The position numbers and the translations under genes were made by a program. Shown piece by piece: positions 1-51,564 of a stretch of DNA of 64,000 bases. How positions within the stretch are numbered: the first letter of the stretch is position 1; each line of letters starts with the position of its first letter. The notes under the pieces are model-generated. The model was not told where the DNA came from. It was given only the letters and a program-made list of their open reading frames with translations, and did not search any database. This DNA is from Aphrocallistes beatrix (lineage: Eukaryota; Porifera; Hexactinellida; Sceptrulophora; Aphrocallistidae), in the NCBI GenBank assembly GCA_963281255.1, contig OY725491.1, forward strand, positions 5,320,857-5,384,856, written 5' to 3'.

Positions 1-80
1 AAAACAGAATTCGGATATTATATAGCTACATTTCTCATAGACTAAATGAATATGTAGAATAGTTTAGTTGAAACAAATAC

Positions 81-24031: not shown

Positions 24032-24110
24032 ATGAAGTCCAATATTAACTTGTTTATGCTCTGTTTTGTTTTATTTTATACCCAATTTGGAATCGTAACA
24101 AATGCTCAGA
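24032..24110 (+). CDS. Gene B exon 1: signal peptide
   Basis: The ATG at 24032 encodes MKSNINLFMLCFVLFYTQFG followed by IVTNAQ, a clear secretion signal with likely cleavage at or near NAQ. Donor A|GTAAGT, phase 1. Gene D exon 1 is a paralogue (MKWNINL...SNAQ), which supports this start. Confidence 0.85.
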
Positions 24111-27100
24111 GTAAGTTTTGAATATATCTATCATTTAAACCAATCTATGAATATTATTCTGATTATAATAGATAATATAATCATATTTTACAAAGCAGAT
24201 AATCGAACGAAGTATTAATTCTTTTGGTAAAATGATGTTTTTCCAAAACATAAATATATTTTATTAAGTTGGATAATCATATTTTTCAAAGCCAAATTGC
24301 ATATTATACAGCTGTTTTTGTTTAAATTTCTAAATAATATTTCTAAACTTTAAACTTAAGCAAGCATGCATGATTAGACGCGAAGCAATATTTTACCAGT
24401 TAAATCCTAATTTATAGAATGTAGTATTCGACAAGGAATTTTACAATAGCCCCAATAGCTTGGGATTGAGTTAAGATTTGGATAACCCTCAAAATTTTAT
24501 ATCTCTAATTCCTCGTCAGATATTGAATAGTTTGTGCTAAATTTTCTAATAAATTTGCTATTGCTATACACTCTCTTAAGGTAATGGAGATTTACGCTTA
24601 ACAGAAGGAAACAGCGGACAGTTGGAAGTATACTTCAATGGGTGGGGATTTATCTGTGACGACAGTTGGAGCATTGTAGAAGCAAATACAACTTGCAAAA
24701 TATTAGGTTATGGAACTGCTGTTACCACAACAACTGGGCGATACAATGCAAGCACAAATTACAAGTTAAACCTAATTGATTGTATTGGAAATGAGACCAG
24801 CATCCTAGACTGTGGATATCGTACATATGTAGCAGGATATTGTTCTTCTTATGAACACATCTATATCGAATGTGGATATGGTGAGTAAAATTTCTTAAAT
24901 TTTCTCTTAATAAAGCTACTATAATAATATACAGTAATATTTATTTTAATTACATTACACATACGAATGGCTTTATTTTTAAAAATGCAGAAATATCAAA
25001 TGTTTTTCGTGTGTCTAAAATATTTTTGGGAAGTGAGGGAATGATTTTGGTTAAAAGACTGTATATGATCCCTTTTATATCTTGTATATATGTTAGGGAA
25101 AATTTGCGAAATCAACAATTATGCATAATTGTTGATTTCGCAAATTTGTCCTAACATATACACTAAGAATACAAAAGTATTTGCAAACTCATGCCCGGCG
25201 CCATTGGTCCAGTTAGTACGGTTTTAACGCTACCATTTTTCAAAAGTGCCCCCAGACTGGCCCTGTTAAACCGGACAAAAGTGGTCCGGTTGGTTCAGTA
25301 AAACCAGACCACTTCTAAATCCGTGGAGCCGGCGCTGAAACTGGGGTACCTTCTGAGGATATGTGGTGCTCTTACATGAATGTATTAATTCTACGTATGA
25401 TGTTAGCCTATGGTGGATTGACAGAATAAATTTTTCCATTCCTGCTAAGTTATTTCAAAAAGTATTTTTCCGAATTAATTCCCTGATTTAAACATTTATG
25501 GCATCAATTCGAGGATGAATTCGTATAAAAGCGTTGAATTAAGTAAATGACATTAATTCAATTTACGAAATCTGGCGAAAGAAATTGGGAAATGGTTAGC
25601 ATAAACCTTAACAATATAAAGTGTGTACTAACAACTTGAACTTCGATTTATGGGTATGCAGTTAGAAAAGTTTGAGAACCAAGTTGCTATACAATATCGC
25701 CCCGGATATTATTCGAAGATTATAATAATTTAATTATTGATAGAAAGTTTAAATTTTAATGTTGTGTACATTGAATTTTGATTGCACTTAAGCTTATATT
25801 ATAATATTTATTAGTCAAGTATTTTGCAAATATTACATTTCCAACATTTTAAAAATCAACAATTTAATAGTAAATGGAAATGTACGCTTGAATGGAGGAG
25901 ATAGTGGGCTGTTAGAAGTGTATTACAACGGTTGGGGATTCATCTGTGACGATGGGTGGGGTACTGTGGACGCAAATACTGTGTGTCAAATATTGGGGTA
26001 CGGAGCAGCATTATCTACTAGCACCAGCAGATATAATAGCAGTACTAATTACAAACTCAACTATATCAATTGTGGAGGGAATGAAGCCAGTATCTTAGAG
26101 TGTGGCTATAGTCTTTATACGTCAGGTTACTGTTCTAGCTTTGAACACATCTACATTTCTTGTGGACCAGGTGAGTTCATGATCATTCATATGATTATTA
26201 CTTGTATATTAAGAATTGATTTTGGGATTGACATTGGTTTATGCCACTTAATAGTGTTTCTTTAACAATAATTTTGGTCATCATTCTATGTTAAGCAAAC
26301 TAATATAATAATTTTGTTTCTAAATATTTGTACTTTGATATTAAAATCAATATACGTAATACAGTATGGAGGAAACAATGATTCAATTACTTATTTACTA
26401 TTAAATCAAAATTTCAATAGCTAACGGTGAAATCCGCTTGACAGAAGGATTCAGTGGGTTACTGGAAGTCTATTACAATGGATGGGGATTCATCTGTGAC
26501 GATGGATGGGGTAATATAGATGCAAACACTAGCTGCAGAATTTTGGGTTATGAAGGAGCAATTACAACCTCAATTGCCAGATATAATTCGAGTACAAACT
26601 ACAAGCTGAATTACATAGCCTGTACCGGAAGTGAGAGTAGTATTTTGGACTGTGGATACAGTCTATATACACCATATTACTGCTCGTCATCTGAACACAT
26701 CTTTATTGAATGTGGACCTGGTATGTTTTCCTATACCATAGATTAATGGAGAGTCAATGGATTAATATGCAAATATATGACCCAGTAACGGTTCCAGAGA
26801 TTTTAATTTAGTGGGGCCAACTTTAATTCGACTGTCCTGGAATTAGAAGACCAGCGTTAATGCAGGATCATAGCCAGGACTTTAGATTGGGGGGAGCGAA
26901 GCGAGAAAATAAGGGGGTTAATTTCTTTGAATAATATATGCACATATTTTATCTGGCTGTTCAATAGTGAACGGAGATCTACGCTTGACTGGAGGAGATA
27001 GTGGACTGGTAGAAGTGTACTACAACGGTTGGGGATTCATCTGTGACGATGGGTGGGGTTCTGTGGATTCAACTACTGTATGTATAGCATTAGGATATGG

Positions 27101-30100
27101 TTCAGCATCATCTACCACTACTAGTGTCTATCACAGTAGCACCAATTACAAATTGCGCTCTATCAATTGCCAAGGAACTGAAACGAACATTTTAGACTGT
27201 GGATATACCATCTACGCACCAAATGTCTGCAGTCGCTATGAACACGTCTCTATTTCGTGTGGACGTGGTACGTATAAATATTATAGTGTATTATTACAAG
27301 TATATAAGATCTATGATCCTATATCATGCTAGAAGTGCATAGTTCTACAATGGGTGGTGGTGTCTGCCTGACCGGCCGTATCTACTATACTAATCACAGT
27401 TAAAAAGATAATTAGTTAATTTTTTGTGATAATGAGACATTATATGAAGATTAGTAACTATTAATCCTTCGGTTTCAAAATACGCATGTTAAATCGTCAT
27501 AATTACGCAACATTTTGTGATTTTATTAGACTCGAAATGAACCCCAGGATCTCCCAATCTCTACGCCATTGTATGGCCCGGTTATGTTTCAAAGGATCGT
27601 GCATACGGACGTAAAACACTTGAAGGGGTACACTGTCCATAACATTATAGCATCTGTGTACTATAGAAGCTTTACTAAATAGCCTGTAGACTTAAATAAC
27701 TAAGAATCAGACTATTAGATTATTTAGTATGTCATATTGACAGTGATGCACTGACAATCTTCACTGTTTATATTAAGTTGTTGTTTGGCAGTTAGATACA
27801 TCTATGAAGTTATATTATATTTGACGTAAATTTAAAACAATGACTTATTTTAAAATAAGCATACAACCTCTGAATTAGAATTCAAAAATATTGCAGTAGG
27901 ATAGGATTTACTACAATATAAAAAAAACAATATGGACCAAATAATGAGGTTATTTCACAAGTCTTTCTATAGCTAACGGTGAAATCCGCTTGACGGAAGG
28001 ATTCAGTGGGTTACTGGAAGTTTATTACAATGGATGGGGATTCGTCTGTGACGATGGATGGGATGTTGTGGATGCAAATACTAGCTGCAGAATTTTGGGT
28101 TATGAAGGAGCAATTACAACCTCAATTGCGAGATATAATTCGAGTACAAACTACAAGCTGAATTACATTGCCTGTACCGGAAATGAGAGTAGTATTTTGG
28201 ACTGTGGATACAGTCTATATACACCATATTACTGCTCGTCATCTGAACACATATATATTGAATGTGGACCTGGTGTGTTAAATAAACTCCAATTGGTACT
28301 TTTATCCAAATTGGATAAGAGTAAACACAAGTTGCAGTTTATGAATAATCATTTGGAGTTACATTTATTGATACTGTTTGTACCAAGTAGGAATTTCAAC
28401 TTAGCTTTGCGCGCAAAGCAAGAATTACACATTGATAAGTATTTATTTGTAATTTTTAGAGATTACTAACAGTATCGGCGTTGCATACATCGAGAATAAA
28501 TGTAGTATTTACTAACCACGAAATATTTTATGCAGGTGATTACTGACACAAAGTTGATAATGTCACACCTAACAATAATTATTAGGGCTTTCATTGTGTA
28601 ACGGACGAATTTGAGACCAGATATTTATTCTGTAAAAATTTTTAATATTTATTTGTTCCCATATTCTATTTATGCAACTTCAATATTGCTAGTAAATCCC
28701 AAATGAATTGCAAATAAATACTTTTCAATATATAAAATAATAAACTTTGCGCAGTGATAAGTAGAAATATTTCAAATTATTCCTATAAGTTTGATGAATC
28801 AAGTACGAATTTTTCATTATGTAAGATTATTTCAATTTTGTTGCGCCAAGGAGTTCCTACTTGACTGTGTCGAGTAGGAACAGTCTCACTTGTCGCAAAT
28901 TTCCCAATGGCTCAGAACAATACTATTACTAATTCATACATGTGCATCTGGATGAAAATATATCTTCTTTTGGTCATGTTTAGCACCGTTAACATATTTT
29001 GCACAAATTTATATTTCTACTCAATAGTAAACGGAGATCTACGCTTGGCTGGAGGAGATAGTGGACTGGTAGAAGTGTATTACAATGGATGGGGATATAT
29101 CTGTGACGATGCATGGGGTACTTCGGACTCAAATGCTGCGTGCCGAATATTAGGTTATGGTTCATCCCTATCTACAACTACGAGTAGCTATCATGTCAGT
29201 ACCAATTACAAACTCAACTATATCAATTGTGGAGGGAGTGAAGCCAGTATCTTAGATTGTGGTTACAGTCTTTACACGCCAGGTTTCTGTTCTCGCTATG
29301 AACACGTTTACATTACTTGTGGACCAGGTGAATTGGTACTTTAGCTTTTTATTGATTGTAAATTATCTCTATTTTCTTGAGTTGCCATATTCTTTTACAA
29401 TATTATGCACGAGATTTTTGACAAAATCTAATATTGATCAATAATTTAATATGTTATATAATTTCTAGCAAACGGAGAGATACGCTTAACAGGAGGATTT
29501 AGTGGACTATTAGAAGTCTACTACAATGGATGGGGATTTGTTTGTGACAGTGGATGGGATGATGTCGATGCGAATACCACTTGCAAAATATTGGGTTATG
29601 AATCTGTGATCACAACGTCTGTTGGTCATTACAATTCGAGCAGTAGTTACAAGTTGACCAGCATTGCCTGTAGCGGAACTGAGTCTCAATTCTTGGACTG
29701 TGGATATTCTACTAGTTATTACTCACTCTATTTCTGCTCCGCGAGTGATCATGTCTTTGTAGAATGTGGACCTGGTAAGCATTTATATATTTTAAACTCC
29801 GATCTGATGAATGGAATGCTGAGGTTCAGGTCATAACATTAGTTAAATGTCCTATTACTTATTAGTGAATGGAGATCTACGCTTGGCTGGAGGAGATAGT
29901 GGACTGGTAGAAGTGTATTACAACGGTTGGGGATATATATGTGACGATGGGTGGGGTTCTGTGGACTCGACTACGATATGTCAGATATTGGGTTATGGAG
30001 CAGCATTATCTACCACTACCCGTAGCTACCATGTTAGCACAAATTACAGACTCAACTTCATCAGCTGTACAGGAAATGAATCCAGCATTTTAGATTGTGG

Positions 30101-33100
30101 TTATCGTGAATACACACCGAATTATTGTTCTCAAAATGAACATGTCTATGTTACCTGCGGGCCTGGTTAGTTTTTTCAATTTTTAGTATAATATAATTTG
30201 TAGACATTGTAAGAAAATTTCCTTCACCAAATTCCTAATTGAACTAGCTTGGAGCTTTGGGATAGATTACAAATTATTGATTAATTAATTCTAGCAAATG
30301 GAGAAATACGCTTGACAGAAGGTTTCATGGGACTCCTAGAAGTGTATTACAACGGTTGGGGATTTATCTGTGATGATGGATGGGGTTCTATAGATGCAAA
30401 TACAACATGTCAAATTTTGGGCTATGAATCTTCAATCACGACATCAATTAGAAGATATAATGCAAGCACTAACTACAAACTCAACTTTATAGACTGTAGC
30501 GGAAGTGAGACCAGTATTCTTGATTGTAGTTACCAGATTTATACACCAAATTATTGTTCTGCGTATGAACACATATACATTGAGTGTGGTCCTGGTGAGT
30601 ATATTAATAGAGATCAAAATTATTTTCTTATGGCCAAAAGATTTTTTTTATTCCTCCAAAATTTTTATCGTTTAATAGTTAATGGCGATCTACGCTTGAC
30701 TGGAGGAGATAATGGACTGTTAGAGGTGTACTACAATGGTTGGGGATTCATCTGTGACGATAGGTGGGATACTGTGGATGCGAATACCGTGTGTATATTG
30801 TTGGGGCATGATTCAGTGAACTCTACACAGATTAGTAGATATCATAGCAGCACTGATTACAAGTTGAACCTCATTGATTGTACAGGAAATGAGACTAGCA
30901 TTCTAGACTGTGGCTATCGTGAATATCAACCAAACTTCTGCTCTCAAAGTGAACACATCTATCTTTCCTGCTCACCAGGTTAGTTTACTGGCAATATATC
31001 ATTTTAATAATTTGATTTCAAATTTATGATGGTACATACTCATATTTTCAAGTATCTTCAAATTTAAATTGATTTTTCTAACTTTTGAAATATTCTATAT
31101 TTTTTAGCCCACGGGGAACTACGTTTAACAGAAGGATTTAGCGGACTCTTGGAAGTGTATTACAACGGATGGGGTTTCATATGTGACGATGGATGGGATA
31201 GTACTGATGCAAATACTACTTGTCGAATATTAGGTTATGAGTCAGTTATTGCGACCTCAATTGGTCAATACAACTCAAGCACTAACTACAAACTTAACAA
31301 TATTGAATGCCAAGGCAGTGAGACGAGCATTTTGGACTGCAATTATAGGATATATTCCTTATATACTTGTTCTGGAAGTGAACACATTTATATTGAATGT
31401 GGACCTGGTTAGTAGATTATTTGTAGACATTGTTAACAGGGGCGTAGACTCAGGATGAGGATTGGTAGGGCTATTTTGTACAAATCGTATTATGGCTAAT
31501 TATTTGGAAGGCCATCGCACTACCAACTCTACCGGAGCCTACGCTTATGGTTAACTTAGAAATGTTATGATACTCTCAATTTTGGGTAAATAATGTTATT
31601 TAATACAATATCGAATAGTAAATGGAAATCTACGCTTGGCTGGAGGAGATAGTGGACTGGTAGAAGTGTATTACAACGGTTGGGGATATATATGTGACGA
31701 TGGGTGGGGTTCTGTGGACTCGACTACGATATGTCAGATATTGGGTTATGGAGCAGCATCATCTACCACTACCAGTAGCTACCATGTTAGCACAAATTAC
31801 AAACTCAACTACATCAGCTGTACAGGAAATGAATCCAGCATTCTAGATTGTGGTTATCGTGAATACACACCGAATTATTGTTCTCAAAATGAACATGTCT
31901 ATGTTACCTGTGGACCTGGTTAGTTTTTAACTGAAAGTTTATTTTCTTTGGAATATAATACTTAAAAGCTTTTTCTAATATACTAGTAGAGCATTAGGAT
32001 CGCTCGATCTTTTCTTTTGGAAAAAAAACATCGCTCATAAACCACGATTGAATATCTGATAGTGTATATAAAATCCCTCGATTTTTATCTAAATTATAAT
32101 CCGAAATATAAAACTATATTCACACCTTGTAGCAAACGGAGAAATACGCTTAACAGGAGGTTTCAATGGACTCCTCGAAATCTATTACAATGGATGGGGA
32201 TTTATCTGTGATGATGGATGGGATACTGTCGATGCGAATACTACATGCCAAATTTTGGGATATGAAAGAGCTATCACGACATCAATTGGAAGATATAATG
32301 CTAGCACCAACTACAAGATAAATTACATAGAATGCTTAGGGAACGAAACTAATATATTGGACTGTAGTTATCGTCTATACTCCTTATATTATTGCTCCTC
32401 AAGAGAACACATCTATCTTGAATGTGGACCCAGTAAGTTGAATTGTTTTTATTGTATTTAACAGATTGAGTGAACCAGGGTATTATACAGCCCTACAGCG
32501 ATAAGCTCCAAGTCTCAAGCACATAAATGATCATAAACCTAAATCATGAAATAATATTAGAATATAGAGTAAATTGGGCAATATTCTAAATTTTCACGCT
32601 ACAAAACACTTTCGAGCATAAAATCAGAAGTCTAAAGGAGTGTCTTGCAGTCCTAGATAATCCCTTGGAGTGAACCAATCATTGTTGAATGGTGTACTAA
32701 ATATAATTTCAAGTATCGTCATATTGACCGAAAACAGCTGAAATTAAATAATAGTTCATCCTTTGTGATCTATAATCAACGAAAATAAAATTAAAATGGC
32801 TGCCTTCTAGTAAATGGAGATCTACGCTTGGCTGGAGGAGATAGTGGACTGGTAGAAGTGTATTACAATGGTTGGGGATACATTTGTGACGATGGGTGGG
32901 GTACTGTGGATTCGAATACTGTTTGTCAAATATTGGGATATGGTGCTGCATTATCTACCAATATCAGGAGCTACCATGTTAGCACAAATTACAGACTCAA
33001 CTACATCGGTTGTACAGGAAATGAAACCAGTATTTTGGATTGTGGCTATAGAGTATACAGACCAAATTATTGTTCTCAATATGAACACGTCAACATTACC

Positions 33101-39100: not shown

Positions 39101-42100
39101 TTCGGCTTCTATAAATACTGAGTTGAATCGGATCGCTGAACTAGCTGGTAATCTTCCTGAGAATAGCGGTGCATGTAACAACAGGTAACTGGATATTGTC
39201 CACTGATTGTATTCCAAATACATAACATGATAACTACTTAAAATGGAAATCAAAATATCCTCAAGTTAAAAATAATGGGATTAAACTTAAATTTATTTTG
39301 CTTCTTTAAAACTACATATTGTTGAGAAAATCAGGAGTAATTTATAAATAAATGATCGAATTTACTTTTACACTAAAGTATAGCATAACTCGCATAATCT
39401 GATGCTCATAGAATATGAAAAATTTTGTCGGATTGTGCAGGATTCATTCTATTTATCTGTGACTATAATTAGTTTGTTTTCTAAAATTTAACAATGAAAA
39501 CTATTATTATTCTATTTTACAATAATTTCATTTTAGATACGGTTTTGTGATATTTGGAGTTCAGAATTACTCTAAAATACTGAACCTTACAAGCAATTCT
39601 TTGTACGGTACACCGACTCAGCTCAAGTCAGTTATTCTAAACTCTAGAGGCTTAGACAACACAATAGGCTATGGTCCTGAAGACGCATACCCTGCTATAC
39701 ATGACGCTGTCACGACCTATGAGTTCAGAGATGGAGTACAGAGGAAAATTGTTCTATTTGCAGATGAGGTAATATATTGCTTTGTCATATACAAATATAT
39801 CGATATCATTCTAGTCTGTTTATAAAAAAAGACTATTTAAGATATTTTTTCTTAGAATGTCAAAATTTTAAATTCATTTACTTGCTTCAGATAGTTCCTG
39901 TGACTCATACAATCATGATTAATCTTATCGTCTTTCCAAACATTTACAGCTTTGTTGAAATTCTTGTAGATGCGCCAATCTGACAGTTCTACACTGAAAT
40001 ACACCTACGAGAACACACTATCTCTTCTACTTTCCAACGACATAACTCTCTCTGTTGTCTCATACTTGGGAACCATCCGATATCACAACCAAGCATCCCA
40101 AAACAGACTCATCGGAATGAAGTTCTTTAATAACATTGGATTTGGGAATTTCTCATCCATAATCAACGATTCAGATCTTACAGTTGTGTCAACTCCCTAC
40201 TTTCTTGCATCTTCTGCTAATATCTATTACAGTTATGTCTTCTTGGCTTGGGATACGAAAGGCTCTGCCTTCGATATGACATATTTCCATCAATCCAATA
40301 CACCATATTTCCCTCATCTTATCGCAAGACTGTTTGAATTTGCTGTCATCCAAGATGTTCCATGTCAATTTACAGGTATGTAAGAACTGATTAGCAGTAG
40401 TAGGGAATATTGTTGTCAACGAGTACAATGTATAATGATATTATATATAAAGTTTGATAATCTTCAAAAGTTTTATATTGCTGCTGACCAAAAATTAATC
40501 AACTTGTCAATGCTATTCCACTACATCGGGTAGGGTATTTTAATTATACTTCTTATTTAGATCTCTCATTTAATTTCGATCGACGTTATGTGTCTACACC
40601 ATACCTTTACTCGAGATGGACAGATATTAAACCTCAGATGCAGTCAGAATGTGTGGATATGGTGTTCCTTGTTGATAGAACTGGTTCAATGAGCAGTAAT
40701 ATCGCTGCTATTACTAATTTAGCACAGTATCTACCAGATAATAGTACAAATTGCAATAACCGGTAAGTATCCTCGCATGAGAAAATGAATCTATTTAAAC
40801 TCGTATAAATACTAAATATAATATCGTATCATTTGTATAATATATTTCAAAGTACATCGTAACGAAATATTGATAATTTATCTTCATATACTATATATTG
40901 CATGTAATGGACGTAATTTAATAGTGAGATGTGATATTTTAGTGGAGGGTACAATCTATTGTTTAACATTCCAATTAGGCAGCCAAGTTAAAAGAAATAT
41001 ATGTATTATTCAAAATCTCAATCCATTTTAGATATGGTCTCGTTTCATTCGAGTCAACTGCTAACATCTTCAACATTGGTGGAGGCAATGCTAAATTCGG
41101 AACAGCTGATCAGCTCTATACAGAGCTGTCATCATTCAGTCTAAGCGGTGCTACAGAAGATGGTTATGTTGGAATAGATGCGATATTGAGAGAGTATAAC
41201 TTCAGAATGGATGCTGATATACGCAAACATATTATTCTCTTCACAGATGAGGTATTATAACGATCTTTAGTAAATTCTTACTGTGCACTAAACTCCCACC
41301 AAATTATAAAAGATGATTATTTGGGATGTTTTATTTATTTGCTTAAATTCTTTTTGACACATTCTACTTAACCTTTATTGTTAGAACTCTTATCATATAG
41401 CCCAGGAGCATAGTGAATTCTTCCTTGACAAAGTCATCTCTTCTTCCAAGACTGGGAGAAAATGGTTTCATTCTCAGCGTTGTCACAGATGCGGACTATT
41501 TCTACAGAGTTGGATCTACCATTACTAGAATGGTTGCTACAGCAGTTGTATCTGAGAGTTATGTGGGATTTCGAACAACAGGCAGTGTTCAACAGTTTAT
41601 AGACTCTTATTCACCTGTGACTGTCAGCACGCGATCAAGCAACCAACACAATAGCTACGCGGAATTGGCGTGGAAAACTGGAGGACTAGCATTTGATTTG
41701 GCATATTTCACATCCAGCACCTCAAATCAGTTGAGAACTGTGAGACTCTTCCAGAGTTTGATGTATAGCTGGGGAACCTATGGTAAACATTAGTACTTTT
41801 ATATTTTCTGTTATTATTTCGCGTCAAATTCTTCAAACATCCATTTGAAATTTTTTTAGATTCGATATAAGATTAATAGTATACTGTTTGTTTAATTAAT
41901 ATTGTATCTCTCCCATAGTACCTCTGAAAATCAGCTCCACAAACTCAGAAGTGAAGGGTGGGAATATAGAAGTGAGTTGTACCACTAACAATGTGCCCAA
42001 TGTCTCCATCAGCTTGATAGCAGGCGGACAGCGATTCTCAGAAGACAATGCAGTATCCATCAAAGCTAATCTGTCTCTGTCTACCATCGATACAGAATCT

Positions 42101-45100
42101 CTAGCTTACGTCTGTTTAGCCAATAATTCTATTGGAGGAGATTCTGCAGTCAACTCGCTTAACATTCAAAGTAAATGAAATAGACATGATCCAATGAATT
42201 AAGTATAACAAGTTATTTAACTAATATAAATTCTTTAGTCGAGCATGGACCTCCAGTGAATGCCACTCTGACTGTACAAAGTTCCACCTCAATCCATGTT
42301 GAATGGAGTCCTCCTATCTCAAGCTTAGCAAGTCTATTCACATACACAGTTTTCTATAGTGGTGATCCTTTTGACACTAGCATGAAGTCTGTAACAACAG
42401 GTCCAAGCACTACACGGGTATTACTGATCAATTTGACTCCATATACCCTGTACAGTGTGTATATAACAGCAGTGACGCATTTTGACAGTAATCAAACTGA
42501 GATATTAACAGCAAAGACATTACAGCAAGGTGAGTTTCTAAAGTATAGTTTATTGCAAAATAGAGTTTATTTATAAAGAGACAATATGCTGAAATGTACC
42601 TGAAGCGTTAGTTGGAGAAGTATTGTTTATATACTATGCTACGTGGAGAGGTTAAGATACTGCTTAAAGTACCAAACGTTTCTAAAATCATGTGAAACAT
42701 TTAATTAATTTAAGCGTAAAATATGCAATCTCTAACTGTATTATCATAACTTAAAATCTCATATATTCCCACCCGATACTGAAAGTGCCGCAGTAGATAC
42801 CTATGTTCCGTATCTTTGTCTTAAATATCTCTTTAACCCCAGGATTCCAAATGTCGTTTTAGAACGCTAGAATTCTCAATATAAAAATATTGACATTAAT
42901 TTGAGTTAGAGACTAACTTCCAATGGTTTGTAGTATGGACAAATATACATTATGAATATCAAATTTTGAAAAGATATTGCGAGGCGACTGAAACGGACAC
43001 AAAGAGCCCTCAAACCGAGCAGCGAAAGCGAGCGAAACGCGCTTGTATTATTATAAATCCCAAGCATTTCATGCTTAATTATGTAGCTCCTACTGCTGGA
43101 CCTGAGGAAGCGATTGCGATAGCACTAAACTCTACTTCTCTCCTTATCCAATGGAGTCCTCCCTCACCCATTCACCAGAACGGGCCTATTAGAAGCTATA
43201 CGCTCTCCTACCCTACTGATGGTCTGTCTGATGCTGGCACTGTGTTGATGCAAATAACCGTCTCAGTTGTTGGAGATGCAGAGTATCCACTTACCGCGAG
43301 AAGCGAATACATTTTGAAGGATTTAAATCCATACAATTTATACAATGTTACAATTGTTGCAAGGAATGATGAAGGCAGAAGTCCTCAGACCTCAGTTACT
43401 GAAAGAACACTGGGAATAGGTAATGATTCATTTTGTAGAATTTGTGTCTTTAAGGGTATTATTTAAAAATATATTAATAAATAGTGATATTAAGGATGGT
43501 ATAGTCATTCGAAACTGTTGAGTATCTCTGTTTTTTTCTTGTATCAAAGGGATTGGTACTTCAAAGTTTATTTTTATTATCATATTTACTTGAAAACCCC
43601 CTCACTTGACTAATCACCCTACAAAAGGGTGCTAGGTAGATTTACAATTGAAAAAGTCTGCTGGAACTCAAGTTTAAATCTGTTCCATAGTGCAATAGAA
43701 GCATATATCTAAGCAATCTCTTACGATAATAGTAGTTTATATGTAGCATATTATGGCATATTTTTCCTAAAATAACTCTAGCGGAACATTCATTGAAGAG
43801 TAACTGTCATCTAAAACAGTAATTTCATCAGATCTTAAAATCCCGCATTGCTCCTGGGATTTTTCTATCTATAGTAACTACCCCAACCTTGAATGGCTTT
43901 ATCTCGAAACATTCCAGGAGCAACGGAGGTTAAATGGGGCTCAAAATAAATTAGTATAGACGTTTTTAATAAATGCGCTTTTTTACAGCTCCCAGTCAAT
44001 CACCACGAAATGTGACAGTCGAAACCGAAAGCTCCACAGCAATTCAAGTATCTTGGGATCCTCCTCCTATCAGCGGACAAAACGGTATCATAACAGGTTA
44101 CCGAATATACTTTAGAGGAGTTACATTCGATACAGAAAGGAGTATTGTAGAATTCACAATCCAAACTCCAGTCTATCCAGCTCATGATAGGAATAGCATG
44201 CTACTGCCACAGCTTGAAGAACACAATCAGTATAACATTGCAGTGGTGGCTGTTAATATAAATGGGACTAGTGCCTCTAGTGATGAGGTTGCAGCTGATA
44301 CCTTGCCAGCAAGTGAGTTCAATGAATGACCTTAGCTAGAAAGAAAGAAAGACGTTTGTGTAGAAGCATTTATCATTATCCTGTGTGCATCGAATAAGCT
44401 ATTTGAAATATAACTGCTCTTAGGTCCATCTTCCCCGCCTGAATCTATACGAATAACTACTGTCTCTTCAACATCGGTTAACATCTCCTGGTACCCTCCA
44501 ACTGCCATCAATCAGAATGGAATTATAAATGGCTACACCATATTGTATCAGAAGGCATCAGGTGATGATGCTGTGATGACTGTCGAAATAGACTCAGACT
44601 CCAAGGATTATCCTCAATCTGAGCTACACTATTATGTTTTGAGACACCTTGAAAAGGAGACGAACTACTCAATAGAGATTAAAGCAAAAAATACTGCTGG
44701 TCTAGGAGTAGCCAGTTTACCCCAATATCATTATACGAAGGAGCTAGGTGAGTAAATAACTTCTTTGGTAACATTATATAGAAGAATCATAATCCATATA
44801 TTTAAATTATTATTTTGAAAAGCACATTGCATACATATAGGAATTGCAGACTACATAAATAATTGAATCTAGTTACATATATGCGCACGAGATGGATGTT
44901 TCTATTTTAAGTCTGAATTATTTCAATTTGGTATATAACTAACGTTCTTCCATACAAAATATAATCCTTATACTTTAATAGTTCCTGGATTAGTTCGAGC
45001 TTTGACAGTTGTGAGTAAGACTTCAAGCACTATAACAGTATCATGGAATCCTCCACTTCTTCTATACCCAGACAGTACCATATCTACATTTACTCTGGAG

Positions 45101-48100
45101 TATGGAGAAAACATAGACAGTTTACAAAGCATGACAGTTTTAGTAGATGAGCGTGAGAGTTATCAACATACATTTTCAAATCTCAAGTCTCAGACACCCT
45201 ATCTAATCAGGGTATACGCTAGTAATGTGTTTGGAAATGGAGAAAATGTTGACTTAGAAGTTGTAACTAATCCACAAGGTGAGTTGAAGTACTCTCTACG
45301 ATAATCCTGAGATTTCATTCATTAGTTCACCTTTCATAGAGATATAACACATTGAAATATCTTATATTGCAATATTATACTCTAGATTCCGTCCCACAAA
45401 TAACAGATCCAGATTCCAATAAAACTCTAACAGAAGACTTGTCTCTCAATTACAACAGGACCATCAGCTGCACAGCTAGCGGTTATCCCCCACCAACCAT
45501 CCGCTGGTACAATTCTGAAAATGAAGCTGTCACTGATGGTCCGATCCTTTTCATAACTGTCAGAAATGTCACGAATGGCATAGTCTTCGTTTGTAAAGCA
45601 GAAAACAGGGCCGGTTTTGTGAGTAGATCAATTCAAATCGTCATCAGAGTTGTGGATCCGGACAGTACACTGGATGATCTTGAGGACGAGATCGATGTAG
45701 CTGGATTCAATCCAGAAGAGGCTGGTGAAGTTGCAGACACCATAAGACTAGCACTTCCAAAAACAGACAATGTTCTCCCTGAAGATACAAACAAGACAAG
45801 AGACACCCTAGATAAAGCAGCTGGCGTGAATGAAGTGCTCTTAGACAAAATAACTGACAACAACACTGACATACCACTTGACGATGCGGAAAGGATTGTG
45901 AATACTGCTGGCGAAATCGCTGTTAAAGACACTGAACTTGATGCTGGTGTTGACACTCCAATTCTCTCTCCAGAAGCCTTAAATCGGGTATTTTTAATCG
46001 ATACTTAAGTCCTATTATGTACTTATTTGCAATTGGAAGATTAGTTGGCTTCTACAATTCTTTCTAGGGCATAATTTCCTTTGCTTCAGATGCTTTACTG
46101 ATCACTTTAAGAACAATTGAAAAGGTCTGCCGGAACTTAGGAAACAATCATTTAAAGAACGATTCAACACAAGAAACTGTTATTATCAACTCAACATATG
46201 TCAAAGTCTATGGAGTAAATCTTCCAATCAAAGAACAACCAGAAGAGCTCTCTTTACCCATCAATGAGGAGATCGCTATTGGGGAGAGTGTGAAGGTTTC
46301 TAAAGATACAATGGTGGGATTAGCAGATGGTCAAATTAATGTTAAGGTATGAATAAATATAATTGTAATAAATATGATAATTGCTTGTGTGATACTTTAG
46401 TATTTATTCTTTTAGATATTTGTGGCCACTTTGAATTTGGACTCAGCGTTGCTCATTCGAAAAGGAAGTGGTACTAAACACGCCTCGAATATCGTGATTG
46501 TTGTCATACCAAAGATCTTAACGAATGTATCATTATCTAAAGATGTAAGTTCTGTAAATGTATTTGAATATTAGATAGTACAAGTATATTTGGGATCTAT
46601 AATTTACCGATTTGAAGGTACAACGGAAATGCTTTCTAGGTTCATAAAATCTAAGTATAAAATTACTATCCATTTTTCGAATTATTACATATTCAGCTTT
46701 AGTCATGTCTTTTGCAAGCATAGACTTCGTTGATGGGGACCTGAGGGGTTTGCCCCTACCCCCAAAGCTTGGAGCCAGGAGAACCTGAAAAATCCTGTTT
46801 TTATTTACCGTTTAACTTTAACTAGAATGCTGAATATGTACTATCTTGTGTTCATCGTTAGCTTCTATGCATGGTTGTTGCCCATTATTGAAATTGAGAC
46901 GATCATAAAAATATTTACTGATTTGCACATGATTCACTTTTATGCTTCTACATTGCAGAATTAGTGTACTTGTTTTTAAAGTGAATATCCTGAATGAATC
47001 ACAAATGAAAATATTTATTTGTAAATATTGTACTCTTAAGCATTTGTATTTTGACACCCATTCAGAAATATTATAATTTACATTTAGGCTACGATCTCTC
47101 TTCCAACTCGTGCAAGACGTTCCTCAATCCAGTCAGGAACATACCTGAGAGGAAACGCTTGGGCTGCAAGTGGAATAATAACAAACGTCATTTCAGAGAA
47201 TATGACCGAATTGGAGACGAATCACTTTACAAGTTTTGCTCTATTCGGTACCCCAACAGCTGTTGTAGATTGGGATTTTTATCTGTCTATCATTAGTTAC
47301 GTGCTGTCTTTCACATCAATCGTATTCCTCATCCTGTCTTTACTCCTCTTTATATTCTCAAGCAGAAAAGGATTCTTCAAAGTAGAAATCAACATACTGT
47401 ATTTCAATCTCGCATTAGCATTACTATTTGCGAATGGGATATTTGCGCTGTATGGAATCAGAGCTAATGTTTTTCCTGATTTGTTCTGTAAAATATTGGC
47501 TGGCATCATTCATTATTCTTGGATTACAGTCTTCACATGGTGTCTCTTATTTGGCATCTATATTTTCTACAAACTAAGTTGTGGTAAGTTTGTGGGATAA
47601 CTCCTTAAAACCTACTTTAAAATAGAATTATGTTCCAAAGAAAGTATATAGTACAGTATATATACATATTTCTCCATTATTAAAACTTCTCAATTCTTCA
47701 GGTATCAACAAAGAAAGAATAGTCTATCCCTACCTCATTATAATCGCATGGACAGTCCCACTGATATTCCCCGTGATTACAGTCGCATTAAAGCTAGACG
47801 AGTATATTGATAACACTGAGCACTGCTTCCCTTCCATTAAGCAAATCGTCGTAGTTGGTCTCGTTGGGCCTGTATTGGTTCTATCCATTGTGACCATTTT
47901 GTTGGCTGTAGTGTTTTCTTTCAGGTTTATATCTGTTAAAAAGCGAATTGAGAGCGAAAAGCAACGAGCACACATCAAACACATATTAGTTAGTACTGGA
48001 GTATTCAGCTGCTTCCTAATCGTGCCATGGATATTCCTTATTGTCTACGCTCTATTGGGTTATTTCGAAGTGGCATTTCAGTGGATTTTCATGATTGAAT

Positions 48101-49342
48101 GGGTGTTTGTACTCTTAAATGATTTGATGGGAATCGTATTCTTCTTTGTCATTGCTATCAGAAACAGGCAGGTCATATTATTAATAACCAGAAAACAGGA
48201 TGATGATGAGACTGAGATTATTCAGAGAGCAATTCCACGAAGAGATGTTATCGATAACCCAACTTACGGTGGTGTGACAAATTTTGGTGCTGAAAATTTA
48301 GCATTTTGTGATTCAATTGAGAAGAATCCAGGAGCTGAATATTCCATTTATGGTAAGTTGATAAAATTCTTAGTTTATACTATATTGGATTTATATTTAG
48401 AAGTACTATGTATACAGCAAGTAGGCAAACGTACATATTTAGAATTATCAATATTTCCCATCATATGTAGATAGTTATACAATAGGTCTATATATATATA
48501 TATAACGGAAAAGCAATTACCGTCTTTCCTTGAATAATTGTTATGGCTAGTTGTATTTATGAATACTCTTAGTGATTAGTAATGAGATTGAAATCGTTTA
48601 TCCCTTCCTAAAGAGTGGGTTTTTCAACCGATGCGTCGCTTTAAATCTTTGAGCCCCGGGGTTTTTGATCACGAAAAAACAAGCGTCGGTGTTTTAAGAG
48701 ATGAACGAAAAAGTAAGCTTTGAGGTGCTTGTGCTTGTTCTCTAATTTATCAATCTGTGACTATTTCTGCCATTGATTATTATAATAACCCTTTTTCATT
48801 AAGCTGATTTTCACTTGCGTTCAGTTATTCACAAAATTTATCCATTATGTCAGAGCCACACCTAACGCTACCATCCAATTATACAATGGGTTAGGTTTAC
48901 AAGTATGAGCTAATAAATGATTCGATGCTGTAAAAAGCACTAGTTTGTAACGCTAACAACTTCACAATATTATCATATCTTCTTTTACATTTTAGCTGAA
49001 ATTGGAGATTTCAAGTGTGAAAAAAGTATAATGGAAAAGAAGGGAATTGTCAGCTACAACCCATATGCCACCAGTGACAATATGGCTTGTGATGCACTCC
49101 CTACTCCGTTCGATAACGAACTTCCACCCGTTTACGATCAGGTCACACGTGTTACATCCACAACATTTGGATTTAATAACCCTGTATATGGAATGGGAGG
49201 AGAAGAAGCACCTCAAGAGGTCTATCAAGATATGCATTTTGCTGATAATCCTTGTCTCGAGGAATTGAAACCTGAAGAGGAGCCCTATTCCATCAATTCT
49301 ACTGGAACTAGGATTGAAAAAGAGAATGACTACGATGTATAA
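24032..49342 (+). CDS. Gene B: giant adhesion-GPCR-like receptor, 22 SRCR, Ig, 2 vWA, Ig, 5 FN3, Ig, GAIN/GPS, 7TM
   Basis: Forty-two exons, assembled from splice sites and frame, sum to 12,912 nt and encode 4,303 residues plus a stop. Order: signal peptide (1-26), 22 SRCR domains, Ig, two vWA, Ig, five FN3, Ig with Ser/Thr/Asp-rich stalk, GAIN region, a GPS with HF|T at 3852-3854, seven helices (about 3870-4160) and a cytoplasmic tail with NPxY-like motifs. Extracellular introns are phase 1 except inside vWA and GAIN, which allows module shuffling. Adhesion GPCRs use the GAIN domain for self-cleavage and the freed N-terminus as tethered agonist. This ectodomain is far longer than usual. It probably acts at the cell surface in adhesion or recognition (inference). 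A tandem duplication inside the SRCR array could in principle be an assembly artefact. Confidence 0.88.
24581..24880 (+). CDS. Gene B SRCR 1 (exon 2)
   Basis: One 300-nt exon. It has six Cys and GQLEVYFNGWGFICDD; the Phe in YFNGW and the ECGYG end are shared only with SRCR 1 of gene D, so the two are positional counterparts. Subtype B. Confidence 0.9.
25087..25160. repeat. 74-nt near-perfect palindrome in gene B intron 2
   Basis: The arms TATATGTTAGG...CAACAATTATG and their complement meet at ATGCAT (25121-25126) with a single mismatch and no loop. It may be a MITE remnant or cruciform-forming site. Confidence 0.85.
25196..25345. repeat. Dispersed repeat with internal CCGGAC/GTCCGG inversions, copy 1
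   Basis: Related to 61695-61835 (TTTTCAAAAGTG, AAGTGGTCCG, GACCACTTCTAAA, GGAGCCGGCG). A short related stretch lies at 4370-4440. No coding content. Confidence 0.6.
25871..26170 (+). CDS. Gene B SRCR 2 (exon 3)
   Basis: 300 nt, subtype A: SGLLEVYYNGWGFICDDGWG and an EHIYISCGPG end. It is preceded by a 990-nt intron that contains a 74-nt palindrome and a repeat. Confidence 0.9.
26421..26720 (+). CDS. Gene B SRCR 3 (exon 4)
   Basis: 300 nt, subtype B, TEGFSG start and IECGPG end. It is nearly identical to SRCR 5, pointing to a recent duplication of an SRCR pair. Confidence 0.9.
26783..26920. repeat. Dispersed repeat, copy 2 of the 17856 family
   Basis: Starts CAGTAACGGTTCCAGAGATT and follows the 17856 copy closely to GCGAAGCGAGAAAATAAGGG. 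In the intron between SRCR 3 and SRCR 4. Confidence 0.55.
26968..27267 (+). CDS. Gene B SRCR 4 (exon 5)
   Basis: 300 nt, subtype A but divergent: CIALGYGSASS replaces CQILGYGAA, and the end is SISCGRG. All six Cys are kept. Confidence 0.9.
27973..28272 (+). CDS. Gene B SRCR 5 (exon 6)
   Basis: 300 nt, subtype B, twin of SRCR 3 (FVCDDGWDVVDANTSC here against FICDDGWGNIDANTSC). The flanking introns of 705 and 755 nt hold no recognised gene. Confidence 0.9.
29028..29327 (+). CDS. Gene B SRCR 6 (exon 7)
   Basis: 300 nt, subtype A (CDDAWGTSDSNAACRILGYG, YITCGPG end). The sequence just upstream of its acceptor is open in the same frame and carries a Met followed by a hydrophobic stretch, so an alternative first exon is possible. 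Confidence 0.9.
29469..29774 (+). CDS. Gene B SRCR 7 (exon 8)
   Basis: 306 nt, the only gene B SRCR exon not 300 nt long; the extra two residues are in the STSYYSLYFC loop. One Asp of the CDD motif is changed (CDSGWD) and the Glu of SEH is Asp (SDH), so the usual metal-site residues are altered. Subtype B. Confidence 0.9.
29866..30165 (+). CDS. Gene B SRCR 8 (exon 9)
   Basis: 300 nt, subtype A (SVDSTTICQILGYGAA, YVTCGPG end). Very close to SRCR 12 and 18, forming a homogenised set. Confidence 0.9.
30295..30594 (+). CDS. Gene B SRCR 9 (exon 10)
   Basis: 300 nt, subtype B (CQILGYESSITTS). First exon of a six-exon block that is repeated with introns from 33620. Counterparts are SRCR 15 and 21. 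Confidence 0.9.
30679..30978 (+). CDS. Gene B SRCR 10 (exon 11)
   Basis: 300 nt, A-position variant with CILLGHDSVNSTQ and a LSCSPG end; CDDRWD replaces CDDGWD. Counterparts are SRCR 16 and 22. The upstream intron is only 84 nt. Confidence 0.9.
31108..31407 (+). CDS. Gene B SRCR 11 (exon 12)
   Basis: 300 nt, subtype B, starts AHGELRL. Counterpart is SRCR 17, almost unchanged in protein. A short inverted-repeat element (31437-31549) follows in the intron. Confidence 0.9.
31437..31549. mobile_element. Short inverted-repeat element, copy 1
   Basis: The ends CAGGGGCGTAGACTC and GAGCCTACGCTTATG are imperfect inverted repeats, flanked by GTTAA on both sides. The superfamily is unclear (TTAA target as in piggyBac, termini like hAT). 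Duplicated at 34759-34870 with the SRCR block. Confidence 0.6.
31619..31918 (+). CDS. Gene B SRCR 12 (exon 13)
   Basis: 300 nt, subtype A; counterpart is SRCR 18, differing at very few positions (GAASS against GAALS). Confidence 0.9.
32133..32432 (+). CDS. Gene B SRCR 13 (exon 14)
   Basis: 300 nt, subtype B (CQILGYERAITTS, LECGPS end). Counterpart is SRCR 19. Donor A|GTAAGT. Confidence 0.9.
32811..33110 (+). CDS. Gene B SRCR 14 (exon 15)
   Basis: 300 nt, subtype A (LSTNIRSYHVSTNY, NITCGPG end). Counterpart is SRCR 20. Its downstream intron is 509 nt; the sister intron after SRCR 20 is 1,331 nt because of an insertion. Confidence 0.9.
33287..33325. repeat. 15-bp tandem repeat
   Basis: GCATAATTATATATA occurs twice and then partly a third time. 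A degraded version is present at the sister position near 36675-36710. Confidence 0.8.
33620..33919 (+). CDS. Gene B SRCR 15 (exon 16)
   Basis: 300 nt, subtype B, unusual start GNGAIRLTGGYIG shared with SRCR 21. First exon of the second six-exon block. Confidence 0.9.
34001..34300 (+). CDS. Gene B SRCR 16 (exon 17)
   Basis: 300 nt, A-position variant (CILLGHDSVNSTQIRRYHSS, LSCSPG). Near-identical to SRCR 10 and 22. Upstream intron 81 nt. Confidence 0.9.
34430..34729 (+). CDS. Gene B SRCR 17 (exon 18)
   Basis: 300 nt, subtype B, twin of SRCR 11 (TGGFSG here, TEGFSG there). Followed by a duplicated copy of the short inverted-repeat element. Confidence 0.9.
34759..34870. mobile_element. Short inverted-repeat element, copy 2
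   Basis: It was copied with the segmental duplication rather than inserted independently, since its flanks are the same as those of copy 1. Confidence 0.6.
34940..35239 (+). CDS. Gene B SRCR 18 (exon 19)
   Basis: 300 nt, subtype A, twin of SRCR 12. Confidence 0.9.
35460..35759 (+). CDS. Gene B SRCR 19 (exon 20)
   Basis: 300 nt, subtype B, twin of SRCR 13 including the LECGPS end and the A|GTAAGT donor. Confidence 0.9.
36138..36437 (+). CDS. Gene B SRCR 20 (exon 21)
   Basis: 300 nt, subtype A, twin of SRCR 14 (GGDTG here, GGDSG there). The following intron carries a GC-hairpin transposon copy. Confidence 0.9.
36964..37730 (+). mobile_element. GC-hairpin repeat family, full-length copy 2, with an empty-site allele in the paralogous intron
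   Basis: 767 bp from CAAGTGCGCTTCGCTTACTT to CCTAGCGTTTTAATAT. The duplicated intron after SRCR 14 reads straight from ATATATGTTA into TACTGTCATG, where this copy is inserted, which defines both element ends. No clear target duplication longer than a few bases. Confidence 0.8.
37769..38068 (+). CDS. Gene B SRCR 21 (exon 22)
   Basis: 300 nt, subtype B, third version of SRCR 9/15 (GNGAIRLTGGHIG). It opens a partial third copy of the block, of which only two exons are present. Confidence 0.9.
38152..38451 (+). CDS. Gene B SRCR 22 (exon 23)
   Basis: 300 nt, A-position variant (CTLLGHDSVNSTQ), third version of SRCR 10/16, ending LSCSP with donor CCTT|GTAAGT. Last SRCR before the Ig/vWA section. 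Confidence 0.9.
38620..38886 (+). CDS. Gene B Ig domain 1 (exon 24)
   Basis: 267 nt, phase 1-1, Cys in YVFTCGIN and YQFICLANNS. Exon plus flanking intron (38595-38965) match gene A bases 371-1 in inverted orientation, with only scattered differences. Confidence 0.85.
38992..40375 (+). CDS. Gene B vWA domain 1 (exons 25-27)
   Basis: Exons 38992-39184, 39537-39768 and 39970-40375. MIDAS is CVDLIFIVDISAS, intact DxSxS. Exon b: RYGFVIFG and QRKIVLFADE. Exon c starts MRQSD in place of PRS and has SYVFLAWDTKG. It corresponds to the odd-numbered vWA type of gene A. Confidence 0.85.
40561..41782 (+). CDS. Gene B vWA domain 2 (exons 28-30)
   Basis: Exons 40561-40762, 41032-41251 and 41401-41782. MIDAS is CVDMVFLVDRTGS as in the even-numbered domains of gene A. 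Exon c starts PRSIV with a canonical ATATAG acceptor and has SYAELAWKTGG. Confidence 0.85.
41919..42170 (+). CDS. Gene B Ig domain 2 (exon 31)
   Basis: 252 nt, phase 1-1. Cys pair in IEVSCTTNN and AYVCLANNS. It completes a vWA-vWA-Ig unit of the same design as gene A. Confidence 0.8.
42239..42529 (+). CDS. Gene B FN3 domain 1 (exon 32)
   Basis: 291 nt, phase 1-1. FN3 hallmarks: GPPVNATLTV, VEWSPP (Trp in strand B) and LTPYTLYSVYITAV (Tyr corner). Confidence 0.85.
43087..43419 (+). CDS. Gene B FN3 domain 2 (exon 33)
   Basis: 333 nt, phase 1-1. IQWSPPSPIHQNGPIRSYTL and LNPYNLYNVTIVARNDEG. The open frame extends upstream to 42966, but the acceptor ATTATGTAG|CTCCT at 43087 keeps phase, and the upstream stretch contains repeat sequence, so it was excluded. 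Confidence 0.85.
43989..44312 (+). CDS. Gene B FN3 domain 3 (exon 34)
   Basis: 324 nt, phase 1-1. SPRNVTV, VSWDPPPISGQNGIITGYRI and EEHNQYNIAVVAVNINGTS are typical FN3 strands. Confidence 0.87.
44424..44747 (+). CDS. Gene B FN3 domain 4 (exon 35)
   Basis: 324 nt, phase 1-1. ISWYPPTAINQNGIINGYTI and ETNYSIEIKAKNTAG. Upstream intron is 111 nt. Confidence 0.87.
44982..45278 (+). CDS. Gene B FN3 domain 5 (exon 36)
   Basis: 297 nt, phase 1-1. VSWNPPLLLYPDSTI, LEYGEN and QTPYLIRVYASNVFGNG. Confidence 0.87.
45386..45987 (+). CDS. Gene B Ig domain 3 and start of the GAIN region (exon 37)
   Basis: 602 nt. The first half is an I-set Ig: TISCTASGYPPPTIRWYNSE and IVFVCKAENRAG. The second half is acidic and predicted helical (LDDLEDEIDVAG to ALNR), like the alpha-helical GAIN subdomain A of adhesion GPCRs. 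The donor CGG|GTATTT gives phase 0. Confidence 0.8.
46068..46544 (+). CDS. Gene B GAIN beta region (exons 38-39)
   Basis: Exons 46068-46346 and 46416-46544, phase 0 junctions. The segment is rich in beta-type stretches (VIINSTYVKVYGV, IFVATLNLDSALL, ASNIVIVVIPKIL) as in GAIN subdomain B. Sequence similarity alone is weak; position between the helical region and the GPS supports the call. Confidence 0.7.
47088..47583 (+). CDS. Gene B GPS and transmembrane helices 1-3 (exon 40)
   Basis: The GPS tripeptide reads NHF|TSFALF (His codon 47223, Thr codon 47229), matching canonical HL|TxFA and leaving TSFALFG as a possible tethered agonist. The Cys and paired Trp residues that normally brace a GPS are missing; only NAWAASG keeps one Trp. 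Helix 1 is about IISYVLSFTSIVFLILSLLL, helix 2 NILYFNLALALLFANGIFAL, helix 3 HYSWITVFTWCLLFGIYIFY, the last very like the adhesion-GPCR helix 3 pattern. A Cys at FCKIL can pair with the extracellular loop 2 Cys. Confidence 0.85.
47702..48352 (+). CDS. Gene B transmembrane helices 4-7 and proximal tail (exon 41)
   Basis: Helix 4 PYLIIIAWTVPLIFPVITVA, loop Cys in EHCFPS, helix 5 VGLVGPVLVLSIVTILLAVV, a basic loop (KKRIESEKQRAHIKH), helix 6 STGVFSCFLIVPWIFLIVYA, helix 7 WVFVLLNDLMGIVFFFVIAI followed by RNRQV, like the class B2 NSLQGFFIF...NRQV signature. The tail starts with an acidic cluster and contains DNPTYGG. Confidence 0.9.
48996..49342 (+). CDS. Gene B cytoplasmic tail and stop (exon 42)
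   Basis: 347 nt with the stop at 49340-49342. Acidic and Tyr-rich: YNPYATSD, FNNPVYGMGG, VYQDM and a DYDV C-terminus. NPxY-like motifs can bind PTB adaptors or mediate endocytosis, and a hydrophobic C-terminal Val could bind PDZ domains (inference). An AATAAA at 49695-49700 is a possible poly(A) signal. Confidence 0.85.
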
Positions 49343-50939
49343 ATAGATAAGACTCTTTCCCCTCGTACTACTTTGTGTTTATCGTCGTTATTTCATCTTA
49401 ACTCTACATATAAGTAATGTTTTTGCTATAACAACTCTATTTTGATACTACTTGTATACCATTACTGGATTATTTGAAAAAGTAGATTAGTAGTATGCTC
49501 TTGTGTATATCTTGACGTTTTTGATTCTACCCTATTACGTACTGTGTATATTGCGTATGAATTAAATTTACTTATAGAAATTTCGCAATCCTCAATGCCT
49601 TAGTAATAGATTGAATCTGGGAAAAATTTTGGTTATTTTCCTGAGTTGATGGGAAATTTGCAATACTATCAAAAATTAAATTGTTTAATCATAAAATAAA
49701 TGATTAATTAAGGTATAAATCTTTTAAAGATTTAAGAGTGTAGATTTTAACAGAATTTTGTAATAATACTTAGAAGGTCTAATGGGTCCAAGTGTTATAA
49801 TCACGGTCCAGGAAGTGATCAACTACTCGGAATCGAAAATATAGTATAATGTGATAAAATATGAGCTACAAAGGAAATAGAATTCTAGTAAGTAATTGTA
49901 TGCACTAATGCCTTCTGAAGTAGAGCAAAGGGTCATTCCTATCTCTAACTAAGATCTGGTTGCCTAATAACCTAACCATAGTAATACAAGTGTAGACTTT
50001 ACTGAATATTCTGACTCTTGCATCCATCATACTCAAGAATTTCTATGACTCACAAGTTCTTCCTGCAGTGTGGGATGATGAACTATCATTGTGAAACAGA
50101 TTTCTTTGACATCCATCTTTCGTTTTCAATAGCGCTATAGTCATTTAACTGAGAAGGCGGACTGTTGTCAACTACAACCGGTCTCAAGAAAATCCATTTC
50201 ATTCGCCTACATATAACAGTTTTACAGTTATGGAGCAAATCGCAATTTTGATTATACCTGAGGAAACAGTGTCTGAAAATAGCAAGAGTGTTCATAAATA
50301 ATGAACGGCGCGAAAGGAAGTTTGGCAAATTCCCCAGCTCTTAAATACAAAATTCTGAATGAATAATTCATAATGTTCATAATGTTATTATTCTTTAATC
50401 CCCCCATGACATATGAGCTTCCGACGCCCCTAGGAGTAGCTATTTATAGCTTCAACTATAGCTGTGCTGAACTAAGGAATAACTCCTCTATATAATGGAT
50501 AGTATCATTTTCAATGGTTTCAAATCATTTATTAAGCCTTTAAGCGAGTTCTCGAAGGTTAATACATTACTCGTAACAATGACAGTCTATTGTAGTGTCG
50601 CACATTGAGTTTTATCGTGAGAGTGACACCATATATATTGTATAGAAATGTGTAAAACATCTCTATTTTTCTCTATTGAGCTGAAAGCACTAAGGATGTT
50701 ATCTCGCTAAAGGTAAAGTTAGGTGCTATCTTTCTGCCTAATGATAGCCGAATTGTTCTCTATAAACATGCGATTATGTACACACATGCTGTATACACCT
50801 CAGTCAGCAACTATCAGTAGGTTTAGCACTTCACCCAGATTGTGAACCCCCTGAAAACATATTAGCATGGATTCGGGGGTATATAAATCTATAAACTTTA
50901 CTTTTACTTTTACCAATTTTCATATCTTAGCTATATTAT

Positions 50940-51420: not shown

Positions 51421-51564
51421 GATTGGTAGGTATTGAGTGTCCCCTAAGTGTTGGCGCCCGGGCGATCGTCCAGGTCGCCACTCAAAGTCCAATTGATATG
51501 CATTATAGGAAGTTAGGTACCTATTATTTATCAAAGTCTCTGTTACACCTGTTACATATCTTAT

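Follow-up and report, generated by a model that had tools for sequence, protein, structure and literature searches.

The window analysed here, a whole 64,000-nucleotide stretch of Aphrocallistes beatrix DNA, contains an array of SRCR exons followed by a vWA-GPCR part, and these very probably belong to a single gene. We also favour, with somewhat lower confidence, the view that this gene encodes one giant adhesion-type GPCR of 4,303 residues, composed of a signal peptide, 22 SRCR domains, an Ig-like domain, two vWA domains, a second Ig-like domain, five FN3 domains, an Ig domain with a GAIN-like region, a 7TM part and a 179-residue cytoplasmic tail. The SRCR array would act as a cation-dependent scavenger surface, the segment TSFALF as a tethered agonist and the NPxY motifs of the tail in internalisation, with growth of the gene occurring in phase.

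The gene, which spans positions 24,032-49,342 of the + strand, was modelled by dynamic programming on splice sites, codon scores and phase, without use of the exon list of an earlier note on this DNA. The program output consisted of 41 exons ending at 49,342, and 37 of the 42 exons were identical to those of the earlier list. The remaining five were set by hand: the start of exon 1 (at an upstream ATG), the end of exon 24 (at a donor), the starts of exons 25 and 40 (at acceptors) and exon 39, which the program had missed (129 nt, 46,416-46,544). The resulting model has 42 exons, 12,912 nt and one terminal stop, with GT-AG ends in all 41 introns, and bears out the reading frame of the same exon number and length (4,303 residues) proposed in the earlier note; the hand-set part was not blind, as the earlier total was known beforehand. 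The gene score was 1,373.4, versus 48.0 for the antisense strand of the same region and 38.0 for the top of 20 first-order Markov shuffles, a score that is partly circular, the same gene having served to train the codon table. A homologous signal exon in front of another SRCR array lends support to exon 1. tRNA and Rfam scans yielded no matches. The features of the gene are listed in Table 1.

Table 1. Exons, domains and duplicated segments of the receptor gene, with positions numbered from the first nucleotide of the window.
Feature	Positions	Strand	Basis or remark
Exon 1, signal peptide MKSNINLFMLCFVLFYTQFGIVTNAQ	24032-24110	+	Homologous exon MKWNINLILFCIAYLGVISNAQ at 59143-59209, before another SRCR array
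Exons 2-23, 22 SRCR domains, one per exon, six Cys each	24581-38451	+	PF00530 (22/22); Cys count
SRCR 9-14 block	30306-33133	+	Duplicated as 33631-36459 (SRCR 15-20)
Exon 24, Ig-like domain	38620-38886	+	AlphaFold2 beta-sandwich; no Pfam match
Segment with exon 24	38592-38963	+	94.4% identical to window 4-375 (inverted); self-blastn
Exons 25-27, first vWA (DISAS)	38992-40375	+	Exon model, Pfam, motif
Exons 28-30, second vWA (DRTGS)	40561-41782	+	Best stretch of PF00092
Exon 31, Ig-like domain	41919-42170	+	Below the Ig_3 cut-off (E 0.02); alignable with exon 24 and with four exons of the neighbour
Exons 32-36, five FN3 domains	42239-45278	+	PF00041, five stretches
Exon 37, Ig domain and first part of GAIN-like region	45386-45987	+	Ig_2 E 1.3e-6; GAIN by ADGRL3 alignment
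Exons 38-39, GAIN-like region (46068-46346, 46416-46544)	46068-46544	+	ADGRL3 alignment; exon 39 placed by hand
Exon 40, degenerate GPS (H3852-F3853-T3854), tethered-agonist-like TSFALF, TM1-3	47088-47583	+	Exon model, alignment
Exon 41, TM4-7 and start of tail (NPTY)	47702-48352	+	7tm_2
Exon 42, remaining cytoplasmic tail (NPVY), stop	48996-49342	+	Exon model

The Pfam family PF00530 matched every SRCR exon of the gene (26 exons were scanned, and the other four, from a gene further to the right, also matched). The six cysteines present in each domain are the number given for group A in the available text of PMC10855680, rather than the eight of group B. Residues D-D-E, matching cation site 2 of SALSA SRCR8 (D1019, D1020 and E1086; available text of PMC7043408), were found in 21 of the 22 domains, SRCR 7 having D-S-D. 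E71 was rejected as the third residue of this site, since the residue spacing in the same text (PMC7043408) and an alignment with CD163 led to E91; either choice gives a count of 21/22. The closest solved SRCR domains are those of CD163/M130. SALSA site 3 is not kept: under a partly assumed position mapping, 20 of the 22 domains have N at position 63 and 12 have Y at position 64.

SRCR 9-14 recur, together with their introns, as SRCR 15-20 (94.2% over 2,841 columns), and SRCR 21-22 form a partial third copy of this block. For the six duplicated pairs, pN was 0.018 and pS 0.114, and the resulting ratio of 0.16 speaks for purifying selection. Five of the pairs are 96.6-99.0% identical, whereas pair 9/15 (exons 10/16) is only 85.9% identical, and the duplicated block is therefore a mosaic. 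SRCR 15 shares 96.3% identity with SRCR 21, which may point to conversion or replacement.

Within the stalk, the VWA family (PF00092) matched the whole vWA piece with an E value of 7.2e-10 and gave two stretches at E values of up to 0.1, the second vWA being the better of the two. The metal-ion site of vWA domains consists of a DxSxS motif plus a Thr and an Asp. Both domains have the motif, and the Thr of the second metal-site loop is present in the second vWA (ATEDGY) and absent from the first (GPEDAY). A comparison of the vWA pair with PDB sequences gave no significant match (best E 0.29, integrin beta-6). Five stretches were recognised by fn3 (E 2.6e-65), and Ig_2 matched exon 37. Exons 24 and 31 fell below the Pfam cut-off, and both align with four exons of the neighbouring gene. 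Exon 24 was modelled by AlphaFold2 with seven strands (pLDDT 79.9), and Foldseek matched this model to beta-sandwiches of the PKD/Ig type and others, with a best E value of 2.1e-3 and none at or below 0.001. These two exons are Ig-like only.

The 7TM part was matched by 7tm_2 (PF00002) at an E value of 3.3e-13 and 49.9 bits, for a cut-off of 20.6, as expected of an adhesion GPCR (class B2). In phmmer searches, the part from GAIN to 7TM aligned with ADGRL3 (E 7.8e-12) and ADGRD1 (E 1.1e-11), and the best PDB sequence matches of the GPCR part were ADGRL3, ADGRD1 and ADGRE5. The GAIN families of Pfam gave no match, and the GAIN-like region was placed by the ADGRL3 alignment only. The GPS family remained below its cut-off (E 0.089; 13.8 bits, cut-off 22.5), and no Cys lies near H3852, indicating a degenerate GPS that has lost its cysteines. 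The sequence H3852-F3853-T3854 followed by SFALF is nevertheless kept, NHFTSFALF being aligned with NHLTNFAVL, and thus provides an H-x-T and a tethered-agonist-like segment. The degenerate GPS alone does not exclude membership of the adhesion GPCRs, because a GPS is present in 28 of the 40 Amphimedon members (available text of PMC4302439). A single-sequence model of exon 40 had a pLDDT of 61.7, mostly below 50 in the GPS part, and was left unused. The hydropathy profile has eight peaks beyond residue 3,800; with two of them overlapping (3,902-3,932), the count of helices is seven. Two NPxY motifs (NPTY and NPVY) are present in the tail, a result seen in 0.11% of 20,000 shuffles, for a motif chosen after the tail had been inspected. 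NPxY motifs serve endocytosis.

The domain list of the earlier note was supported for the SRCR, vWA, FN3 and 7tm_2 domains and for one Ig; two further exons are Ig-like only, and the GPS is below the cut-off. Pattern searches of prokaryotic genome contigs yielded 28 matches for exon 41 and four for the SRCR alignment, and those of viral contigs yielded five and 35, respectively; none was confirmed, and these searches have little bearing on animals.

In the earlier note, matching phase at every junction was taken as proof of one continuous gene. The single-gene architecture is supported, but on other grounds. Phase closure is uninformative at the SRCR/Ig junction, as the exons for SRCR, Ig and FN3 domains are all 1-1 modules and 34 of the 41 introns are in phase 1 (five are in phase 0 and two in phase 2); the frame would stay closed even if two such genes had been joined within an intron. 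The evidence from the junction itself concerns intron 23, between exons 23 and 24, which at 168 nt is the 18th shortest of the 41. An arrangement of two neighbouring genes, the first for a secreted protein with the SRCR array that ends near 38.49 kb and the second, downstream of it, for a vWA-Ig-FN3 adhesion GPCR, would be compatible with the stop reached by read-through of exon 23 (38,484-38,486), with the vWA arrays of the divergent neighbour, which have no SRCRs in front of them, and with the presence of another SRCR array starting at 59-60 kb. The best two-gene sum among six split points, obtained at 38,460, is also near the one-gene score (1,347.7 versus 1,373.4), and the 25.7-unit margin includes start and stop penalties of our own choosing (12 units for the second gene). 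Two further observations count against one gene: an AATAAA lies at 38,879, within exon 24, and the donor score of exon 23 is the fifth lowest of the 22 SRCR exons. However, the read-through adds only CKLYLSKLFSK, with no anchor, and the second gene would begin with an exon lacking a hydrophobic core (38,489-38,544) or have no signal at all. No AATAAA or ATTAAA poly(A) signal is found at 38,400-38,878, whereas three are found downstream of the final stop, at 49,561-49,695. Exon 23 is followed by a GTAAGT donor, the acceptor before exon 24 is kept in the neighbour's copy, and 168 nt is nothing unusual for an intron of this gene. The introns of the main gene were scanned, at strict thresholds only, for secretory start exons (an ATG exon of 14 aa or more in the right phase, with a hydrophobic core and a donor score above zero), a relaxed scan being applied to the neighbouring gene; a single weak candidate was obtained from the 41 introns, in intron 2. 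A separate start before 38.6 kb, which the earlier note had named as an observation that would split the gene, was thus not found in intron 23 at these thresholds, and we consider two genes to be unlikely.

A chimeric contig, joining an SRCR gene to a vWA-GPCR gene inside intron 23, is more improbable still. Such a misjoin would stay open in frame, all the flanking modules being 1-1, and the SRCR-repeat similarity does stop at 38,449, with similarity to the inverted neighbour exon beginning at 38,592. Intron 23 nonetheless contains no long repeat within the window, having in common with the neighbour exon only a 24-nt end and no other match of more than 16 nt, and SRCR-bearing adhesion GPCRs occur in other animals. 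The single-gene model, built on the genomic sequence, is the most likely.

If the single-gene model is correct, the SRCR array would provide a multivalent surface for divalent-cation-dependent scavenging, with anionic ligands such as microbial surfaces, debris or matrix, and the vWA/Ig/FN3 stalk would add adhesion. Ligand or force would pass through the GAIN-like region to TSFALF, the segment after F3853, which may serve as a tethered agonist on the 7TM part with or without cleavage; cleavage-dependent and cleavage-independent activation are both described for adhesion GPCRs in the available text of PMC13197933. The NPxY motifs would support internalisation of the receptor. Such an arrangement would link the broad recognition of microbes or debris to signalling inside the cell in a simple way. 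Among the genes of the sponge Aplysina aerophoba that respond to microbial molecules are one SRCR gene and one GPCR gene (PMC6208332, available text), and by analogy a role of the receptor in immunity or symbiosis is plausible. A single gene might instead encode chiefly an adhesion or mechanosensing receptor for cell-cell or cell-matrix contacts, or give rise to several receptors through exon-skipping isoforms. Domains of the vWA, FN3 and Ig types are commonly adhesive, adhesive ligands and force activate adhesion GPCRs (PMC13197933, available text), and 1-1 exons are easily skipped; the D-D-E site kept in almost all of the 22 SRCRs points to broad ligand binding, and we regard a chiefly adhesive function or a set of isoforms as doubtful, although less so than two genes or a chimera. 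On the favoured reading, the gene grew through in-phase duplication of 1-1 exons, its SRCR part probably having been joined to a module common to the divergent vWA-array neighbour.

The receptor resembles CD163/M130 and SALSA/DMBT1 in its tandem SRCRs and cation-site residues; to our knowledge, neither of these has a GPCR module. With 22 SRCRs, versus nine SRCR matches for CD163, the single-gene model implies an array more than twice the size of that of CD163, wired directly to a GPCR. ADGRL3 and ADGRD1 align in the GAIN region and/or the 7TM part, but differ in that the GPS cysteines are lost here, and we know of no SRCR or vWA in either of them. The earlier note knew of no described receptor with this combination of domains. 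SRCR-bearing adhesion GPCRs are already in print, from Amphimedon, amphioxus and, apparently, Acanthaster; the addition of vWA and a receptor on this scale were not found in print by our searches. The Amphimedon queenslandica adhesion GPCRs Aq712029 and Aq715659 carry multiple SRCR repeats, as here, and the domain list of that study also includes fn3 and Ig (PMC4302439, available text). The term vWA, a domain of the present receptor, is absent from the main text of PMC4302439; the comparison was made by description rather than by sequence. Each SRCR is a single exon here, whereas most SRCRs of the linked Amphimedon genes are encoded by three (PMC10855680, available text). Adhesion GPCRs with an SRCR domain are described from amphioxus (PMC2246102, available text), and 7tm_2 is among the five top partner domains of SRCR in Acanthaster planci (Table 1 of PMC10855680, as available). 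Both have SRCR together with an adhesion-GPCR module, as here, but these descriptions mention no vWA and state no numbers of repeats, as far as the available texts of PMC2246102 and PMC10855680 extend. Placozoan adhesion/secretin GPCRs provide a further case of scavenger-receptor-type recognition domains wired to a GPCR, with combined GPCR signalling and endocytosis proposed; their domains are of the C-type lectin type, and not SRCR or vWA (PMC6321704, available text).

The combination of SRCR, vWA and 7tm_2 in one receptor was not found in the literature searched, but it may be shown in the receptor drawings of PMC8242945, for which the legend of Figure 1, in the available text, names VWA, SR, GPS and 7TM among the domains of Halichondria panicea receptors. 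The terms 'SRCR' and 'VWA' are absent from the main text of a choanoflagellate GPCR study (PMC12716839), and 'SRCR' is not found in the available text of a review (PMC13197933). Most likely, the receptor is a longer form of one that sponges and amphioxus are known to have; it extends these reports and founds no new class.

A divergent gene occupies window positions 64-18641 of the minus strand and leaves the window at its left edge. It contains four copies of a [vWA-vWA-Ig] unit, one start exon of which was seen only among the ORFs, and the two of its eight vWAs subjected to Pfam analysis were both positive. No secretory start exon was found for it at strict thresholds; relaxed thresholds gave a tentative signal exon with a weak donor at 18757-18682, together with less convincing candidates around 23.0 kb. 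Its last visible Ig exon is the inverted near-copy of the segment containing exon 24 (Table 1), with 252 of 266 positions identical in the exon and 74 of 77 in the downstream intron. The two begin to be similar 28 nt upstream of exon 24, and the window edge cuts the similarity off. Recent copying between the two divergent genes thus took in exon 24 and perhaps the part that follows it; the 94% identity of the Ig exon, flanking intron included, suggests that the join of the SRCR and vWA-GPCR parts may itself be recent. More tentatively, the locus could be a receptor-building cluster, in which a vWA-Ig-FN3-GAIN-7TM chassis common to the two divergent genes, one with 22 SRCRs and the other with at least eight vWAs, was recently copied in inverted orientation, or at least its first exon was, with new receptors arising through the swapping and lengthening of 1-1 exon arrays ahead of a single GPCR. 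The block duplications and the near-identical inverted Ig exon make this locus a case for following the assembly of a large receptor from 1-1 exons.

On the right-hand side, a second SRCR-array gene lies in tandem on the + strand (window 59143-63449), which starts with a homologue of signal exon 1, continues with four SRCR exons and is cut off at the right edge of the window. A multi-exon gene at 54142-56779, also on the + strand, encodes a cysteine-rich protein with a hydrophobic C-terminus and no Pfam match at an E value of 0.1; the automatic model chained it to the right-hand SRCR gene, and this chaining was rejected as wrong. Between the divergent genes, a perfect 200-bp inverted repeat (21351-21550 and 21918-22117, 367 bp apart) is either a foldback element of recent origin or an artefact of the assembly. 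A dispersed repeat is present in introns of both large genes (7849-8612 and 36964-37730; 83% over 779 columns), and a piece of it, of about 160 bp, recurs in inverted orientation at 51556-51718.
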